NCBI GenBank assembly: GCA_030154105.1
Contig: JASKKP010000003.1
Span: forward strand, 1 to 64,000
Source: Bacillota bacterium
GTDB taxonomy: Bacteria; Bacillota; DTU030; DUMP01
Direction of reading: 5' to 3'
DNA: 64,000 bases
In this document: piece after piece, positions 3,004-13,993 of the stretch
Numbering within the stretch: the stretch's first letter is position 1
Layout of the letters: each line of letters begins with the position of its first letter
The notes under the pieces: generated by a model
The model's database searches: none
The model's input: the letters and a program-made list of their open reading frames with translations, nothing else
Told to the model about the DNA's origin: nothing
Translations under genes and position numbers: made by a program

Positions 3004-6000
3004 GTGACAAGTAACTGCTCTCGCGTAGGAGGGGTTTATCTGGATATCCAGGAACTACGCCAGCGTGAGGACCTGTTTCAACGCACACTAGAGGCTGCTT
3101 TAGAGCAGATCAAAGGTGTCGGCCCCGTAGACGTGGTTGTAGGCGTTCCTTTTTACAATGAACAAGATACCTTGCCCAAGGTGCTCTCAACTGCAGTGCA
3201 AGGCCTTAAGCCATTTCTGAATATCAAGCCACTTTTTATCTGCGCCGGCGATCCGGCCGGCAATAAAGCGCTGACCGCGGTCCAGAGCCTTGAGCTCGAC
3301 GTTCCTCACCACGAGTTCTTACTACCGCCAGGTGCCAACGGCCGTGGGTTTAGTATTCGGGCCATTTTGGAAGTAGCTCGAAAGTTCGGAGCAGATGTGA
3401 TTCTCCTCGAGGCCGACCTCAAGGAACGGGGTGAGTGGGGGTTTAAGCCGACATGGCTCGAACGCCTGCTTTTCCCGCTTCTTCAGGACTACGATCTAGT
3501 AGTTTCCAGCTTCCGGCGCCACTACTTCGAGGACCCTACCGGCAGCTTGTTTGTAGCGCCTTTACTTGAGGCTTTCTTCGGCCTGCGCGTTACCGACCCC
3601 TTAAGCGGTATCTACGGCATTTCTCGCAGCCTGGTGGAGGATTATTGTACGAACTTGGACTGGTGGTACGGCGGCATCGGCGAATTCGGCGTGGACCCTT
3701 GGCTGCTCGCTCAAGCCGTGGTCTGGGACAAGAAAATCTGTGAAGTTAGCCTGGGGGCCAAACTCAGCCCGCCATCAGCGAGTAAACGGACGCACGTCTT
3801 CAAACAAGTCGCGCGGGCCCTTTTCGACTGTATCAAGAGCCATGAGGAATACTGGCTGAAATCCCAACTCATCCTGAAACAGCCCGACATCTACGGGCTG
3901 GAGCTCCGGGACCGCCCCTTGGAGGTGCACTGCCATCTTTCAGACCTAATTGCCAGCTTCACCACCGGGTTTAACCATTTTAGCACTCTTTTTGCCCGCG
4001 TGTTGCCGGAAAAAGAATATAAAGGCCTTGAACGATTGGCCGGCCGGCGCGAGGCGGAGTTTCGCTTTAGCGAGGAACTCTGGACCCATGCGGTGTACCA
4101 TCTCCTTCAGGCTTACGCCTTCGACTCAACCCTGCAGGCGGACGACATCATAGAAGCACTTCGGGTGCTTTACGACGGGCGCTTGGCCGGGTTTGTCGCC
4201 ACCATCCAGAGCTTCCGCGCCTTGGTCGGCGAGGTAAAGAACCTGGACCTGGAGGACCTGACTTTCGAACAGGTTGCCCGCCTCAAAGAGAACCAGGTGA
4301 AGGAGTTTTGCCGCTTTAAGGACGGTTTTGTGAAAACCTGGGTGGAGAAGGCGGCCGAGGTGCGCCCGGTTATAACCCCTCTCGACTACCTGGAGTTTAT
4401 CCCCGGTGTACCTCTCACACTTCCCAAGGAGCTGAAGGGCTTAGGCGGAATTCCGGTGCGGACGAATACCGTTTTTCGCCGGCTGCAGGAGCGCTACGGG
4501 GAAGCCTTTCACCGTTTTGTGCATGAGGACTTGAAGCTGGCGCAAGGATTGCCTTCGGCAGAAATCGGAGCCGGCCTGGAGCGCTTTATGCTGGACCTGG
4601 AACGGGCTGCAGATCGCCTATTTCCGGGAGATCTTTCCACTCCGGAAGGAACGCGAGCCGTTGTGGAAAAAGTCTTTGACCTGGTGCCGCACCAAAGCAT
4701 TCTGGCAGTGAAGAGCGAAATCCTGCGCCGGCTCCTTACGGAGTTTCCTCCTCCGAACCTCTTGATTCGGCTCGGGTACCACAGCACCTCAGAGCTCCTG
4801 GATAACCTGGACGTGCGCGATGCCCTGACGCTGGCCGGAATTTGCGAGGAACGTGAGTACACCGACCGGGTGCTGTGGTGGCTGGAGGACAACCTACGTC
4901 CCGACGGCCTGGAGGAGGTGGAGATAAAGCCCCTTATTTTTACCTCGGAAACCTTTCCCGGTGTGGGAGAGCTGCGCGACATATCCCATCTAAATCGGCT
5001 GGCAGCACGCATTACGGTGGGGAGCCTCCCTAAAGGGATGGGCGGAGCCTTTCCGAAGATCCGCTACTTCACCCGCATTGTCAAGAGCCTGGTGGAGGCC
5101 GAGCATTATTCCTTTATCTGGCAAATCTATGCCCGCGAGCGCAAGGAATTTGGGACCAAGCTGGTTAACTCCATCATTAAGCACCGGGGTCGCGAAATTT
5201 TTTCGGCCGCCAACATCTTTGAGAACTGGCACCAGCGCGACCTTACTGCCCGTACTCACCTTCTGGCGAAAGAGCTCGCCAAGGCCGGCTGGCAAGAAGA
5301 AGCCCGCCTGCTGGAGCTTATGGTCAAGGGCTATGGCCTGAGTCTCACCCTGGACGACGGCACCTTTATCCCTTGTTCTGCCTGGACCTGGGCAAGTTAC
5401 AGTTTCCGCGGAGGCAAAGGGGTGCCGACGCCGCTTTCGCTGCACGTAGAACGCGACTGGTTCCACCATGACCTCCTGGAAGAGATGTACAAGGAGATGG
5501 GCTTTCGCCCCCAGGATATCATGACGGAGGTTATCGAGCGCATTGGCGAAGGACGCGGGGCCAGCAACCTTCTTGACGCGCTCCTGGGGACGCGCCAGGT
5601 AGAAGAGGCAGTCCTGGTGCAGGACGTTGGAGCCTTTCCGCCGGCAGGGCAGCTCCGACGGGAGGAGAATAACCCGCTTCTTCGCCCCATCGCTGAGCAT
5701 CCGTGGGAGAGCCGTTACGTGCTCAACGCTGCGGCGGTTCGCCTGAACGGCAAGGTATATCTCCTATACCGGGCCTTCGGCGAGGATGAGATTTCCCGCA
5801 TCGGTCTGGCCGTCTTTGAGCGCAATAAGCTTATCGAGCGGTTGCCGGAACCCATTTTTGCGCCGGCCATACCTGAGGAAAAACGCGGGTGTGAGGACCC
5901 GCGCGTGGTGGTGATCGACGGCCGCCTGTACATGGTGTATACGGCCTACGACGGCGTGGTGGCGCAGGTGGCCGGAGCTAGCATCAGCGTGGAAGACTTC

Positions 6001-6681
6001 TTGGCCCACCGCTTCGACCGTTGGGAAAGGATGGGTATGGCCTTCCCGGGGTTGTGGGACAAGGACGCCATACTCTTTCCGGAAAAGATCGACGGAAAAT
6101 GGGTGATGTACCACCGGGTGGAGCCCAGCATCTGGGTATCCTACTCGGATACTTTGAGCTTCCCCTGGCCCAAACAAAGCCACAAGATCATCATTGGCCC
6201 CCGCTCAGGCCTTATGTGGGACTCTCTCAAAATCGGTTCCGGTTCCCAGCCCATCAAAACGAAATACGGCTGGCTCCTCATTTACCACGGGGTGAGCAAC
6301 ACCATGGTCTATCGCCTGGGCGTGATTCTCGTGGATCTTCAGGACCCCAGCCGGTTGCTCTACCGCTCTCCCAACCCCATCCTATCGCCGGAGACGGAGC
6401 TCGAAGTCGGTGAACGGGAGCGCTCTTGGGTGCCGAATGTGGTGTTTACCTGCGGTGCGGTACCTGGAACGGACAAGGAGATCCTCGAGGATGAGGACGA
6501 GGTGCTGGTGTATTACGGCGCTTCGGATACCTACATTTGCCTGGCCAGTGCCCGGGTAGCAGACCTGATTCCGGCGGCGATTCGGCATCGGGTAGCCGCA
6601 CGGGTGAGGGCGGCCAGCGGCCGCATGGAGGGGGCGTCCGCGGGGCATCCTGAAACTGGAGGTGGTGAAGCGGGTGCCTAA
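3004..6681 (+). CDS. Fusion protein: GT-A glycosyltransferase-like N-terminus (MpgS/GpgS-like) plus alpha-helical middle plus GH130-like glycoside phosphorylase C-terminus
   Basis: N-term GVPFYNEQDTLPKVL..LLEADLKERG..DPLSGIYG; C-term NPLLRPI..GCEDPRVV..WDKDAILFPEK..YHGV..YYGASDTYICLA typical of GH130; start codon uncertain. Confidence 0.8.
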   Translation: MTSNCSRVGGVYLDIQELRQREDLFQRTLEAALEQIKGVGPVDVVVGVPFYNEQDTLPKVLSTAVQGLKPFLNIKPLFICAGDPAGNKALTAVQSLELDVPHHEFLLPPGANGRGFSIRAILEVARKFGADVILLEADLKERGEWGFKPTWLERLLFPLLQDYDLVVSSFRRHYFEDPTGSLFVAPLLEAFFGLRVTDPLSGIYGISRSLVEDYCTNLDWWYGGIGEFGVDPWLLAQAVVWDKKICEVSLGAKLSPPSASKRTHVFKQVARALFDCIKSHEEYWLKSQLILKQPDIYGLELRDRPLEVHCHLSDLIASFTTGFNHFSTLFARVLPEKEYKGLERLAGRREAEFRFSEELWTHAVYHLLQAYAFDSTLQADDIIEALRVLYDGRLAGFVATIQSFRALVGEVKNLDLEDLTFEQVARLKENQVKEFCRFKDGFVKTWVEKAAEVRPVITPLDYLEFIPGVPLTLPKELKGLGGIPVRTNTVFRRLQERYGEAFHRFVHEDLKLAQGLPSAEIGAGLERFMLDLERAADRLFPGDLSTPEGTRAVVEKVFDLVPHQSILAVKSEILRRLLTEFPPPNLLIRLGYHSTSELLDNLDVRDALTLAGICEEREYTDRVLWWLEDNLRPDGLEEVEIKPLIFTSETFPGVGELRDISHLNRLAARITVGSLPKGMGGAFPKIRYFTRIVKSLVEAEHYSFIWQIYARERKEFGTKLVNSIIKHRGREIFSAANIFENWHQRDLTARTHLLAKELAKAGWQEEARLLELMVKGYGLSLTLDDGTFIPCSAWTWASYSFRGGKGVPTPLSLHVERDWFHHDLLEEMYKEMGFRPQDIMTEVIERIGEGRGASNLLDALLGTRQVEEAVLVQDVGAFPPAGQLRREENNPLLRPIAEHPWESRYVLNAAAVRLNGKVYLLYRAFGEDEISRIGLAVFERNKLIERLPEPIFAPAIPEEKRGCEDPRVVVIDGRLYMVYTAYDGVVAQVAGASISVEDFLAHRFDRWERMGMAFPGLWDKDAILFPEKIDGKWVMYHRVEPSIWVSYSDTLSFPWPKQSHKIIIGPRSGLMWDSLKIGSGSQPIKTKYGWLLIYHGVSNTMVYRLGVILVDLQDPSRLLYRSPNPILSPETELEVGERERSWVPNVVFTCGAVPGTDKEILEDEDEVLVYYGASDTYICLASARVADLIPAAIRHRVAARVRAASGRMEGASAGHPETGGGEAGA

Positions 6682-7480: not shown

Positions 7481-8056
7481 TCAGGGCCGGGCTTTGGCTG
7501 GTTGGGTAACTACGGCAACGGCGCCCAGCCAGGCGCTTACGCGCTTATAAAGAAGAAAAGTTGCGGTGGAGGAAAGCACGCCTTTGATGAGGTTGAAGGG
7601 AATAATGGCGCTTACGGCCATAGGAAGTATCTGTTCCACAGGCACGTTCCAGAGCGGGAGGAAGATGTAAATATCGGCGACGGTAATGGTGGCCGTCATG
7701 ACGATGGTGCCGACAAAAAGGGCGAGGATAGCGCCCTTAAGGGTGCGCACCCGTTGATAGACCAAAGCGGCGGCGACGACGAGGCTGGCCCCGGTGACGA
7801 AGTTGGCGCTAACGCCGATAATTCCGGCCTCTGAGCGGCCGGAGAGAAGAAAGAGGGCACACTTGATCGCCTCGGCCAGAATGCCGGCCAGCGGGCCGAA
7901 GGCGAAGCCGGCAATGAGGGCCGGTACGTCGCCAAAATCGAACTTAAGGAACGACGGCATGAAGGGGAGCGGGAACTCCAGGTACATCAGGAGGAAACCG
8001 AGGGCGCCGAGAAGGGCCACTTTGACCAGATACCGCGTATCGCGAAGACGGGCCAT
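7481..8056 (-). CDS. ribU: ECF transporter S component, riboflavin (RibU-like)
   Basis: Small polytopic S-component-like protein directly downstream of an FMN riboswitch. Confidence 0.85.
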   Translation of the reverse strand: MARLRDTRYLVKVALLGALGFLLMYLEFPLPFMPSFLKFDFGDVPALIAGFAFGPLAGILAEAIKCALFLLSGRSEAGIIGVSANFVTGASLVVAAALVYQRVRTLKGAILALFVGTIVMTATITVADIYIFLPLWNVPVEQILPMAVSAIIPFNLIKGVLSSTATFLLYKRVSAWLGAVAVVTQPAKARP

Positions 8057-8163: not shown

Positions 8164-8182
8164 AAAATGCCGAACGGAAACA

Positions 8183-8335
8183 CCACCTTCTCCCATCCGG
8201 ACTATACCGTCGGCTCTGGCTTCTCACCAGATCAGCCACCTTAGTGGCTCGCGGGCTAGTCTTCCGCCTTTCGGCGGAAGCATCACCGCCGGTCAGGAAT
8301 TGGGGGCCTGCCCCCTCACCTTGCCCCGAAGGCCT
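8183..8335 (-). ncRNA. FMN riboswitch (RFN element)
   Basis: minus strand GGGGCAAGGTGAG..CCTGACCGGCGGTGATG..AGCCCGCGAGCC..GATCTGGTGAGA..CCGACGGTATAGTCCGGATGGGAGAAGGTGG. Confidence 0.96.
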
Positions 8336-8482
8336 TCTTCCTATGTTTTTATCATAACGAACTATACCATAGGTGCGGGGAGAAAACAAAGAGGAACAGG
8401 ACGGAAGGAAAACCGTTCTGTCCCCTTTATGGCCGCTTAAGTTCTGCAGGCCCGCCCTGACGCTCTGAGGGCCGCTTTTTCG

Positions 8483-9296: not shown

Positions 9297-10247
9297 ATGC
9301 CAGCGGGGGTCCACATAGCGCGCACGGTAAGGAGTGAAATCCTGGCCTGGGCGCGGCAAGCGGAAGGCCGGGAGATCGGCGGCCTCCTCCTGGGACGGGT
9401 GCGCGGCGAAGGTGAAAGGGCATTGGTGCGGGTAGAGGCGGCCCTCCTCGCGCAAGGGGCGGATTCTGTGGGGAGCAGTATCCGCTTTACCCCCGAGCTT
9501 TTGGCCGAGCTCGGCACCCGGGCCAAGAAAGAGTACCCTGCGTTCCGGGTGGTGGGCTGGTTTCACACCCATAGCGGTTTAGGGGCTTTTCTGTCGGGAT
9601 ACGACGCGGCCGTTCACAAGGAACACTTCCCCGAGCCGTGGCAGGTGGCGTTGGTCTTGGATACGGAGCTGGAGCGCGAGGCGCTCTATATACGCGAAGG
9701 CGCGGAGATGGTGCCCGTGGGCTCTTACGCCTCAAGCGGCGCCGGCTCAGAGACTTCTTCCGGCATGCCTACCTTGCCCCACGCCCGCTACCGGCTGGCC
9801 CGCCCGGGCCGGCTCCTCGGGGTGTTACTGCTGGCTGCTCTCGTTCTGATGTTCGCTTTGACGGGCCGGGCCTGGTGGAACCGCCGCCATTCGACCGGCG
9901 CCGGGGTACAAACACCGGTACCGGCTGGATCGGTTGCCCCTGAGCCGGTGCCCGCTGCGGAGGAAAAGGTTGCCGAGGCGCCTTCAGACAGTAATGCCCC
10001 TCTGGGGAAGGGCCAGGGGGCGCCAGCCGGACAAAAGTACATCATCCGTCCCGGCGATACTCTTTGGGGCATTAGCGAACGCTTCTACGGGAAGGGGAGC
10101 TTTTACCAGGAAATATCACGCCTCAACCGGTTAACCAACCCGCGGCTTGTCTATCCGGGGGAAGAAATCATTTTGCCGGAAAAGAAGACGGGAACGGGGC
10201 CGAGTGGTACGGCGGTTCCTCCTCCACAGACGCCCCCTGGCGCCTAG
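9297..10247 (+). CDS. JAMM/MPN metallopeptidase domain - TM helix - LysM domain protein
   Basis: HTHSGLGAFLSGYD = JAMM HxHx7SxxD motif; hydrophobic segment LLGVLLLAALVLMFAL; C-term YIIRPGDTLWGISERFYGKGSFYQEISRLN..LVYPGEEIILP = LysM. Confidence 0.88.
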   Translation: MPAGVHIARTVRSEILAWARQAEGREIGGLLLGRVRGEGERALVRVEAALLAQGADSVGSSIRFTPELLAELGTRAKKEYPAFRVVGWFHTHSGLGAFLSGYDAAVHKEHFPEPWQVALVLDTELEREALYIREGAEMVPVGSYASSGAGSETSSGMPTLPHARYRLARPGRLLGVLLLAALVLMFALTGRAWWNRRHSTGAGVQTPVPAGSVAPEPVPAAEEKVAEAPSDSNAPLGKGQGAPAGQKYIIRPGDTLWGISERFYGKGSFYQEISRLNRLTNPRLVYPGEEIILPEKKTGTGPSGTAVPPPQTPPGA

Positions 10248-10294: not shown

Positions 10295-11473
10295 TCATCT
10301 AAAGCTTTCGGCCTGCCCGCACAGGAGGTTGGCGATGGCCTGCGCTGCCTGCTCGGCGGCCTGCGGGCGGGCGATGCGGGCCGCGGCCCGGCGCATGGCG
10401 GCGAGCCTGCTGGGGCTCGTCAAGATTTCCTCTACGGCATGGGCGGCTTCATGGATTTCTTCCACGCGTACGGCTGCCCCGGCGTGCACGAGAAAGCGCG
10501 TATTGTCTTCCTCTTGACCGGGAATAGGATGGACGATGACCAGGGGAAGTCCCCGCGCCAGGGCTTCGGCGGTGGTAAGTCCGCCTGCTTTGCCCACCAA
10601 GATGTCGCTGGCCGCCATCCACTCTTCGATGTTGGTGACGAAGCCAAGGACGTGGACGGGTTGCCTGCTACCTAAAGCCAATTGCTGCACCTGGGCGCGC
10701 AGGCGCTCGTCGTGACCGGCCACAAAAACCACCTGGAGGGGAAGCGGCAAGGCGGCTAGCGCCGCGCAAAGGTCGGCGGCGTCGGGGACGAGGCCCTGCG
10801 CACCGACCATGATGAGAACCACCGGTAGGTCCGGATTAAGGCCTAAAGCTTTTCGCGTGGCGGTGCGGTCACGCGGCAAGGCGAAACTGGGTGAAATGGG
10901 TATGCCGGTTACGGCGATGCGCTCTGCCGGTACTCCGCGCCGGATGAGGCGTGCGCGGACGTAGTTGGAGCCGGCGAGGTAAAGATCGGTACACGGATGG
11001 AGCCACTGGCTATGTAAGCTTTGGTCGGTAAGAACGGTGGCGAGCGGCAGGGTTACCAGGCCGCGCCGTTTCATTTCTCCTAAAATACGGGAAACCATAG
11101 GGTGCGTGCTTACCAGAAGGCGGGGATTGTAGGCGGCGAGGAGAGAGCGGGTGCGACGGAAGAAGAGGCGGCTTAAGCGCCGCTCCAGGCGCGACCCCGA
11201 TCCGGAGCGATCGGTCAGACGATAAAGGCCTTTCCAAAGGAGGGGCGCCCGAAGAACGGCCTGGCGGTAGGAAATCTCCAGCAGGCGGTTAGCCGTCGGG
11301 CTGAGCTCGCGAAAAAAGTTAACCGTGGTACACCGAAGTTCCGGCCGGATGAGCTGGAATCCTTCTACCAGAGCGCGTGCTGCCTGCAGATGCCCGCCCC
11401 CGTAGGAAGCGGCGAAGATGAGCACGTCCACCTTGTCGGGCAACTTCAATCCCCTTTCGTCGACCTTGCCCAT
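10295..11473 (-). CDS. MGDG synthase/UgtP-like glycosyltransferase (GT28 type)
   Basis: ASYGGGHLQAARALVEGF N-term; GFVTNIEEWMAASDILVGKAGGLTTAEALARGLPLVI C-term. Confidence 0.88.
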   Translation of the reverse strand: MGKVDERGLKLPDKVDVLIFAASYGGGHLQAARALVEGFQLIRPELRCTTVNFFRELSPTANRLLEISYRQAVLRAPLLWKGLYRLTDRSGSGSRLERRLSRLFFRRTRSLLAAYNPRLLVSTHPMVSRILGEMKRRGLVTLPLATVLTDQSLHSQWLHPCTDLYLAGSNYVRARLIRRGVPAERIAVTGIPISPSFALPRDRTATRKALGLNPDLPVVLIMVGAQGLVPDAADLCAALAALPLPLQVVFVAGHDERLRAQVQQLALGSRQPVHVLGFVTNIEEWMAASDILVGKAGGLTTAEALARGLPLVIVHPIPGQEEDNTRFLVHAGAAVRVEEIHEAAHAVEEILTSPSRLAAMRRAAARIARPQAAEQAAQAIANLLCGQAESFR

Positions 11474-11564
11474 ACCCTTTTTACTTTGTTTATTATACTA
11501 TGAGAGGGAAGAACTTGTCCGCTTTCGGCAAGCGTTACGAAAGAAAAAAAGGAGGATGCGCCCA

Positions 11565-12167
11565 ATGGACTGGCTGGCTCTGTTTGCCCGTCACCCGGTG
11601 ATACCCTCTCTCTGGCACGGCCAAGAAATCGAAAAGCTACCGCCCCAGGCGGCGGTGGTGCTGATTTCCCGGGCCTCGCTCTTCGATCTGCCCGACCTGG
11701 TGGCGCGGCTTAAGCGGTCGGGAAGGCGTATCCTCGTTCAGGTGGACCTCCTGGAGGGGTATGGGAAGGACAAAACGGTTGTTGAGTATCTCGCCCGGGT
11801 GCTAAAAATCGATGGGATCATTACGCCTAATACGGCTCTCATCGATGCGGCCTGCCGGGAAAAGATTCTGGCTGTCCAACGCATGTTCCTCCATGACAGC
11901 GTTGCCCTGGAAAAGGGCCTGAAAGTGGTAAAAGGCAGCCGCGCAGACTTTCTGGAGCTTTTACCCGGTCCGCTGGTTCCCGAGGTGTTGCCGCTGGTCC
12001 GTCAGGAAGTGTCCCTGCCGGTTATGGCGGCCGGTTTCATCCGGACTGTGCCTCAGGCACGCGCCATCCTGGCAGCGGGTGCGGTGGCAGTGGATACCAG
12101 CTGCCGGGCGCTTTGGGGGCTGACGCCCGCCGAGCTGAACCGGGGAGACGACCTGGATAAAAGGTAA
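11565..12167 (+). CDS. glpP: Glycerol-3-phosphate responsive antiterminator family protein
   Basis: IDGIITPNTALIDAACREKILAVQRMFLHDSVALEKGL..VMAAGFIRT..AVDTSCRALWG typical of GlpP; SD aaggagg. Confidence 0.9.
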   Translation: MDWLALFARHPVIPSLWHGQEIEKLPPQAAVVLISRASLFDLPDLVARLKRSGRRILVQVDLLEGYGKDKTVVEYLARVLKIDGIITPNTALIDAACREKILAVQRMFLHDSVALEKGLKVVKGSRADFLELLPGPLVPEVLPLVRQEVSLPVMAAGFIRTVPQARAILAAGAVAVDTSCRALWGLTPAELNRGDDLDKR

Positions 12168-12457: not shown

Positions 12458-13993
12458 ATGGCTCAGTACCTACTTGGCTTTGATGTGGGCACTTCTGGTA
12501 GCAAAGGCGTGATCGTTACTTTAGACGGTAGAGTGGTAGCTACGGCTTCGGCCGAGCACGGCGTGGACGTGCCGCGTCCGGCCTGGGCGGAGCAGGACCC
12601 GGAGGCCGTTTATTGGGGTGACTTTAAAAAGATAGTAAAGAAGATGCTCGCCGACTCCCGGGTGAATCCTCAGGAGATTGCCGGCATCGGGGTAAGCGGC
12701 CTTACGCCGGATATGGCCCCGGTCGACCGGGAAGGGAAGGCGGTACGGCCGTGTATCATCTATATGGACCGGCGCGCTACCGCCGAGTGCGATTGGGCGA
12801 AGGAGCACCTGGGCGAAGGGAAGATCTTTGAGGTGAGCGGCAATGCCGTCGACCCGTATTTCGCCGGCTACAAAATGATGTGGTATGCGCGCCATGAGCG
12901 GGAAAACTACGAACGCACCTGGAAGATGCTCAACTCCCACGCCTACATCATCTTCAAGCTCACCGGCGAAGCGGTGATCGACTACGGCGTGGCCGGCCTT
13001 ACGGCACCGCTTTTCGACATCAAAAACCTCAAGTGGTCGGAGGAGATGTGCGCCGCCTGCGGGATCGACATGGAGAAATTGCCGAAGCCTTACCCGGCCC
13101 ACGAGGTCGTCGGAACGGTCAGCGATGTGGCGGCGAAAGAAACGGGCCTGGCCATGGGGACCCCGGTCATCGCCGGCGGCGGCGTGGATGCTTCCTGCTC
13201 GGCCTTCAGCGTGGGTATGATTGAGCCGGGCACCTCCGCCTGCATGTACGGTACCACCCACTGCTGGCAGATTGCGCTCTCGGAACCCAAGTTTGACCCG
13301 CGCTTTATCAACTTCCCGCACGTCTACCCGGGAGCCTACGTTGCCCTGGCCGGCCTCGGAACAACGGGGGCAATCATCCGCTGGTTCCGCGACCAGTTCG
13401 GCCAAGTGGAGAAGGAAACCGAGGCTAAATTAGGAGTATCCGCTTATAAGATACTAGACATGGAAGCGCAGCAGATTCCGCCGGGTTCAGACGGCTTGGT
13501 CCTTCTTCCGTACTTTATGGGAGAGCGCACCCCCATCTGGGACCCGTATGCCCGCGGCGTGTTTTTCGGCCTGAGCCTCTATCACACCCGGGCTCACCTC
13601 TACCGCGCCATTATGGAAGGCATCGGCTACGGCTTGGCGCACCACGCAGAGGTGGCGCGCGAGCTCGGAATTATGCCGGAGCGCGTGGTCGCGGTGGACG
13701 GCGGCGCCTCGAGCCCGCTGTTTAGGCAGATAGTCACCGATATCATGAACGTCCCCCAGGACTACATGGCCAAGGTGGCCGGAGCGCCGGTGGCGGACGC
13801 CTTCCTGGCCGGCGTGGGTGTGGGCATCTATAAAGATTTCCGCGAGATTAAGAAGTGGATCACCTTTACGGAGAGCAACGAACCCAACCCAGCGGCGACG
13901 GCCGTCTATCGCAAGCTTTACGGTGTGTACCGGCGCCTCTACGAGAAGACGGCCGACGAGATGCACTTCATCGCCCGCCTGGAGGAGAAATAA
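12458..13993 (+). CDS. FGGY-family carbohydrate kinase (xylulokinase-like)
   Basis: LLGFDVGTSGSKGVIVTLDGRVV; GLVLLPYFMGERTPIWDPYARGVFFGLSL; VDGGASSPLFRQIVTDI. Confidence 0.93.
   Translation: MAQYLLGFDVGTSGSKGVIVTLDGRVVATASAEHGVDVPRPAWAEQDPEAVYWGDFKKIVKKMLADSRVNPQEIAGIGVSGLTPDMAPVDREGKAVRPCIIYMDRRATAECDWAKEHLGEGKIFEVSGNAVDPYFAGYKMMWYARHERENYERTWKMLNSHAYIIFKLTGEAVIDYGVAGLTAPLFDIKNLKWSEEMCAACGIDMEKLPKPYPAHEVVGTVSDVAAKETGLAMGTPVIAGGGVDASCSAFSVGMIEPGTSACMYGTTHCWQIALSEPKFDPRFINFPHVYPGAYVALAGLGTTGAIIRWFRDQFGQVEKETEAKLGVSAYKILDMEAQQIPPGSDGLVLLPYFMGERTPIWDPYARGVFFGLSLYHTRAHLYRAIMEGIGYGLAHHAEVARELGIMPERVVAVDGGASSPLFRQIVTDIMNVPQDYMAKVAGAPVADAFLAGVGVGIYKDFREIKKWITFTESNEPNPAATAVYRKLYGVYRRLYEKTADEMHFIARLEEK

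Follow-up and report, generated by a model that had tools for sequence, protein, structure and literature searches.

A conserved fusion of a putative GT-A glycosyltransferase module, a helical region and a GH130 phosphorylase-like domain in anaerobic Bacillota

Computational analysis of the window, i.e. the whole 64,000-nucleotide stretch of Bacillota DNA considered here, identified at 3004-6681 (+) an open and uninterrupted reading frame of 1225 codons, in which a GT-A-like module, a long helical region and a GH130 domain follow one another. A first-pass annotation had already proposed that these parts belong to a single chain, which is borne out by the uninterrupted frame and by relatives that keep the same architecture; since dozens of genomes share this architecture, a chance origin of the frame is excluded. 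The start codon is uncertain. Counted from GTG 3004 the protein comprises 1225 aa, and from CTG 3040 it would comprise 1213 aa. A Shine-Dalgarno-like sequence, AGGAGGGG, lies inside the frame at 3027-3034 (+), 5 nt before CTG 3040, and the closely related homologue L036 has a Met at the residue encoded here by this CTG. Judging from this spacing and the start Met of L036, CTG 3040 is most likely the true start and is favoured over GTG 3004; the length of the protein would then be ~1213 aa. Scans for promoters and terminators around the fused gene returned nothing above shuffled sequence, and an Rfam scan gave no match at the gene itself.

Upstream of the fused gene, on the same strand and at a distance of 102 bp, lies a gene for a GntR/FCD-family regulator (2188-2901, +), an FCD-type protein with below-cut-off profile matches only. 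This gene had been suggested to control its neighbour. It is indeed a conserved neighbour, found upstream of the fused gene in 6/6 window-family loci that include upstream DNA; yet the adjacency is seen only in that family and is thus not a general feature of the fused proteins. Elsewhere in the window, an FMN riboswitch (RF00050, 94.4 bits; 8181-8337, -) sits upstream of a membrane-protein gene (7481-8056, -) whose product resembles a riboflavin ECF transporter subunit. By eye, a JAB/MPN-type domain, a transmembrane segment and a LysM domain are apparent in one chain encoded at 9297-10247 (+), and a gene for a glycerol-3-phosphate responsive antiterminator (PF04309, 7e-44; 11418-12167, +) is followed by one for an FGGY-type sugar kinase (12458-13993).

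The sole Pfam match in the fused protein is PF04041 (4.6e-54, 183.9 bits against a cut-off of 26), which places the GH130 domain at residues 884-1188 (5653-6567, +); with the family profile as query, the GH130 match rises to 8e-82. The motifs GCEDPRVV, YHGV and YYGASD, on which the annotation had based a GH130 phosphorylase-like C-terminus, are all present in this domain, and the assignment holds. The nearest solved structures are 7fip, i.e. the β-1,2-mannobiose phosphorylase Teth514_1789 of Thermoanaerobacter (2e-59), and 9fj8, a 1,2-β-oligomannan phosphorylase. The NCBIfam model for β-1,2-mannobiose phosphorylase, NF052550, scores 253.7 bits, below its curated cut-off of 450. GH130 domains typically adopt a five-bladed propeller fold; in a low-confidence AlphaFold model, the C-terminus is β-rich.

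A check of the catalytic and phosphate-site residues found Asp965, Lys1020, Arg1038, Lys1076, His1095, Asn908, Arg923 and Asp1175 to be invariant in 35 of 35 fused relatives. Arg1038 (6115-6117, +), Lys1076 (6229-6231, +) and His1095 (6286-6288, +), each mapped by spacing, are candidate phosphate-binding residues. Hydrolase-type Glu replacements do not occur at these three positions, and the Lys1076 position, invariant in the fused family, is Arg in some standalone GH130 enzymes. GH130 enzymes have been described to share an invariant catalytic Asp and to differ at three positions, which are basic and bind phosphate in phosphorylases but are acidic in hydrolases; a Lys (Lys199 of BT3780) marks β-1,2-mannose specificity (PMC4599007). 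Asp965, part of the EDPR motif (5896-5898, +), is accordingly the proposed proton donor (PMC4599007), and Lys1020 (6061-6063, +), mapped by spacing and by alignment to 7fip, is a candidate equivalent of Lys199. In 7fip and 9fj8 the aligned residue is likewise Lys, in TM1225 it is Arg; because Lys1020 is also kept in distant sampled standalone GH130s, it does not discriminate among them. As judged from sequence, phosphorylase activity of the GH130 half is well supported and β-1,2 specificity is likely.

All eight genomes of the family to which the window belongs carry full-length relatives that are 37-94% identical to the window protein, with one copy truncated by a contig end. When 399 genomes of the window's phylum were sampled, with one contig scan reaching beyond the phylum, a profile search with the middle region of the protein matched 48 genomes, always within a fused frame. 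The matching open frames were at least 718 aa long, and those shorter than ~1170 aa were contig-end copies where checked. As the middle region was never found apart from the fusion, the fusion is obligate within this sample. Viral contigs yielded no relatives, and plasmids no match to the middle region. In a tree with 17 standalone GH130 domains, the fused GH130 domains make up one side of a branch with an SH-aLRT value of 99, which standalone GH130s of the Thermoanaerobacter type adjoin, a topology consistent with one fusion event. Literature searches, restricted to open-access sources, returned no description of a GT-A/helical/GH130 fusion; the proteins thus appear to represent an undescribed, conserved and stable three-part GH130 family of anaerobic bacteria.

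The genes surrounding 36 fused loci were tabulated. Nearby partners include a GT4 glycosyltransferase (c1; 20 loci), a protein termed c2 (19 loci), phosphomannomutase (PMM; 11 loci) and mannose-1-phosphate guanylyltransferase (GMP; 11 loci), with at least one partner in 23 loci and none in 13. In eight loci the GT4 and c2 genes immediately precede the fused gene in an operon, all on one strand and separated by gaps of ≤12 bp or joined by a short overlap; in many other loci the two genes are oriented towards the fused gene or located downstream of it. Further loci contain a phosphomannomutase, a mannose-1-phosphate guanylyltransferase, a fusion of GT4 and mannose-6-phosphate isomerase, or a GH5-like gene. 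The GT4-c2 pair is also found beside standalone GH130 genes, in operons that include a PMM or a mannose-1-phosphate guanylyltransferase-like gene. c2 itself (L044:11540-12562 and relatives) is an uncharacterised protein of 342 aa that is present in 100 of the 399 phylum genomes, recurs beside GH130 and GT4 genes and shows weak similarity to (α/α)6-type structures only. In the genome of the window, PMM, GMP, GT4 and c2 genes lie together on another contig (C24), unlinked to the fused gene and without a GH130 gene. There (L087:729-5957), the genes for mannose-1-phosphate guanylyltransferase and PMM share one strand and are faced by those for an aldo/keto reductase-ferredoxin protein, GT4 and c2; an SLH-polysaccharide deacetylase gene follows this GDP-mannose/glycan cluster.

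At the N-terminus, remote profile matches place a GT81/GT78-like GT-A domain with a partly degenerate active site (residues ~40-300; 3121-3903, +), followed by a helical tail that is also present in standalone relatives (residues 301-435; 3904-4308, +). The family profile of this part matches GT2-type GT-A enzymes at 2e-4 and, weakly, GpgS (GT81) at 0.04, and no curated GT model, MGS_GT and GpgS included, matches the window protein; the standalone relatives match below cut-off. Such a standalone version of residues ~25-420 exists in four sampled genomes, and an alignment of two of them matches mannosylglycerate synthase at 0.002 and GpgS, along the full length of the GT-A domain, at 1.9e-8. 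The kinship with these two enzymes that the annotation had proposed is therefore real, if remote. A Foldseek search with a model of residues 20-335 found nothing below an E-value of 1e-3 and offers weak support, as mannosylglycerate synthase ranks among its top matches (probability 0.97-0.98). Two standalone GpgS-like genes with the same helical tail (L069:852-2090 and L071:7968-9251) lie beside LacI-type regulators; they are candidates for an ancestor-like form of the fused N-terminus.

Given its relation to GpgS and, more weakly, to mannosylglycerate synthase, the GT half could be imagined to make mannosyl- or glucosyl-(phospho)glycerate, which the GH130 half would recycle, i.e. the protein would turn over a compatible solute, as had been suggested. 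However, GpgS and mannosylglycerate synthase form α linkages, whereas the GH130 enzymes known so far act on β-mannosides. Moreover, the fused loci are surrounded by genes of GDP-mannose and glycan metabolism; in the neighbourhoods examined, genes for glycerate metabolism, phosphatases or osmoregulation do not adjoin the fused genes. The context thus points towards GDP-mannose and β-1,2-mannoside metabolism instead of compatible solutes, and we regard a glycerate- or 3-phosphoglycerate-dependent enzyme as highly improbable.

Whether the GT-A module is a working transferase can be approached through its active site. The motif EADLKE, which had been pointed out as DxD-like, does lie at the DxD place, but it supplies an ExD (E136-A137-D138; 3409-3417, +) where the standalone relatives have DSD, and Ser255 (3766-3768, +) replaces the metal-ligand His of GpgS, which is kept in the standalone L069 and L071 proteins. 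Across the fused family, the DxD place reads ExD in 22/35 and AxD in 6/35 rows, the rest having other forms, and the His is found in 1/35 (L056). Asp138 is lost in 8/35 relatives, corresponding to about three independent losses on a tree built from middle and GH130 columns, a fourth change being a single ambiguous row (L062). The GH130 residues stay intact throughout, including where the GT site is lost, and some genomes carry a motif-lost copy as their only one. The GT domain does not decay faster after the loss: its mean identity is 53% in the motif-lost clade versus 51% in the intact sister clade. Losses of Asp138 and His without faster decay argue that the module is kept, though not always for metal-dependent transfer, and a retained non-catalytic role would fit this pattern. 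The claim of an active synthase half, against which Ser255, the ExD and the Asp losses speak, is not supported and is improbable in parts of the family.

Within the window's own family, E136-x-D138 and neighbouring residues are conserved in 7/7 members. Here the GT could thus be active, and a combination of synthase and phosphorylase is plausible in this lineage, not as a property of the whole family. Such a protein would be truly bifunctional: its GT-A domain would prime or extend a β-mannoside from GDP-mannose and its GH130 domain would phosphorolyse the product or extend it from mannose-1-phosphate, with synthesis and recycling of an oligomannoside thus united in one chain. In this family the motifs PFYNE, NGRG, EAD, RRHYFEDP and DPLSG are fully conserved and the GT domain shows 77% identity, compared with 83% for GH130; the genome also encodes a GDP-mannose supply, and standalone relatives with intact DSD and His match GpgS. 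Leishmania GT108 even provides a precedent for both activities on β-1,2-mannan in one protein (PMC8950772). Nevertheless, the metal His is missing from nearly the whole fused family, the DxD place reads ExD or AxD, and the loss of Asp138, sometimes in the only copy of a genome, indicates that transfer is unnecessary for the conserved role. We therefore hold the bifunctional enzyme to be possible but the less likely reading.

The part between the two modules had been annotated as ~550 aa of unassigned helical sequence. Its predicted, mostly helical nature and its lack of a known family stand. The middle region found only in this fusion comprises ~445 aa (residues 436-880; 4309-5643, +), to which the helical tail of the GT module adds. 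Domain parsing with AlphaFold did not settle the folds, as the models were too poor (mean pLDDT of 37 for residues 14-1200 and of 45 for residues 20-335 run with three sequences) and were used for secondary structure only. The size of the region, its mean pairwise identity of 44%, which is above that of the GT domain, and its invariant aromatic and acidic residues, including Glu464, Glu615, Trp794, Trp796, Glu816 and Trp819, might suggest a third catalytic domain, e.g. an (α/α)6-type glycan enzyme that would make the chain a three-step enzyme. This is improbable, however: a 35-row profile of residues 436-880 matched nothing in Pfam or the PDB, hhalign found no relation to c2, and unlike most catalytic domains the region never occurs outside the fusion.

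The fused protein is probably a cytoplasmic β-1,2-mannoside phosphorylase that is tied to GDP-mannose metabolism and carries an auxiliary putative GT-A module. The computation shows the domain order, which residues are kept or lost, which genes lie nearby and the single clade of fused GH130 domains; going beyond this, we infer the substrate, linkage and reaction direction of the protein and the roles of the GT-A and helical regions as follows. The GH130 domain would exchange phosphate for the terminal β-1,2-linked mannose of an endogenous oligomannoside, a reaction that would yield or consume α-mannose-1-phosphate, and mannose-1-phosphate guanylyltransferase, phosphomannomutase and the clustered GT4 transferase would link the phosphorylase to GDP-mannose. 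The GT-A module, joined via the family-specific helical region, may bind a sugar nucleotide or glycan and thereby position or regulate the phosphorylase. In the window lineage it may still transfer mannose and prime the chain, whereas in several other lineages it would be unable to use a conventional DxD/His metal site. The fused phosphorylase is widespread, has no evident importer and lies beside GDP-mannose genes, a combination that points to an endogenous β-mannoside. More speculatively, and with considerable doubt, thermophilic and syntrophic Bacillota might store β-1,2-mannan inside the cell, as a bacterial equivalent of the mannogen of Leishmania; the fused protein, with GT4 and c2, would prime this reserve from GDP-mannose and break it down to mannose-1-phosphate. 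The family is further notable for its helical region, for which no relatives are known, and for a naturally occurring set of GT-A domains that stay conserved despite lost catalytic residues.

Among known systems, the closest solved or characterised relatives of the C-terminus are two Thermoanaerobacter GH130 enzymes, Teth514_1789 and the 1,2-β-oligomannan phosphorylase Teth514_1788, which share its conserved residues and a GDP-mannose neighbourhood. They are single-domain proteins of ~300 aa, whereas the window protein is longer by ~880 aa, which make up its GT-A and helical parts, and their locus contains an ABC transporter, of which none was identified among the fused-locus neighbours examined. 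The Thermoanaerobacter phosphorylases were reported to cluster with GDP-mannose genes, yet the authors knew of no physiological source of β-1,2-oligomannan in this organism despite two characterised enzymes (PMC4264767). With GpgS (GT81) and mannosylglycerate synthase (GT78), the N-terminal module has the GT-A fold family and the order of motifs in common; these enzymes use DxD and a metal His, whereas the fused family mostly has ExD or AxD without the His. Finally, Leishmania GT108, which acts in mannogen turnover, likewise unites the building and breaking of β-1,2-mannan from GDP-mannose and mannose-1-phosphate in one protein (PMC8950772), but houses both activities in one propeller domain, whereas the fused protein combines a domain that scores as GH130 with a separate GT-A module attached to it.
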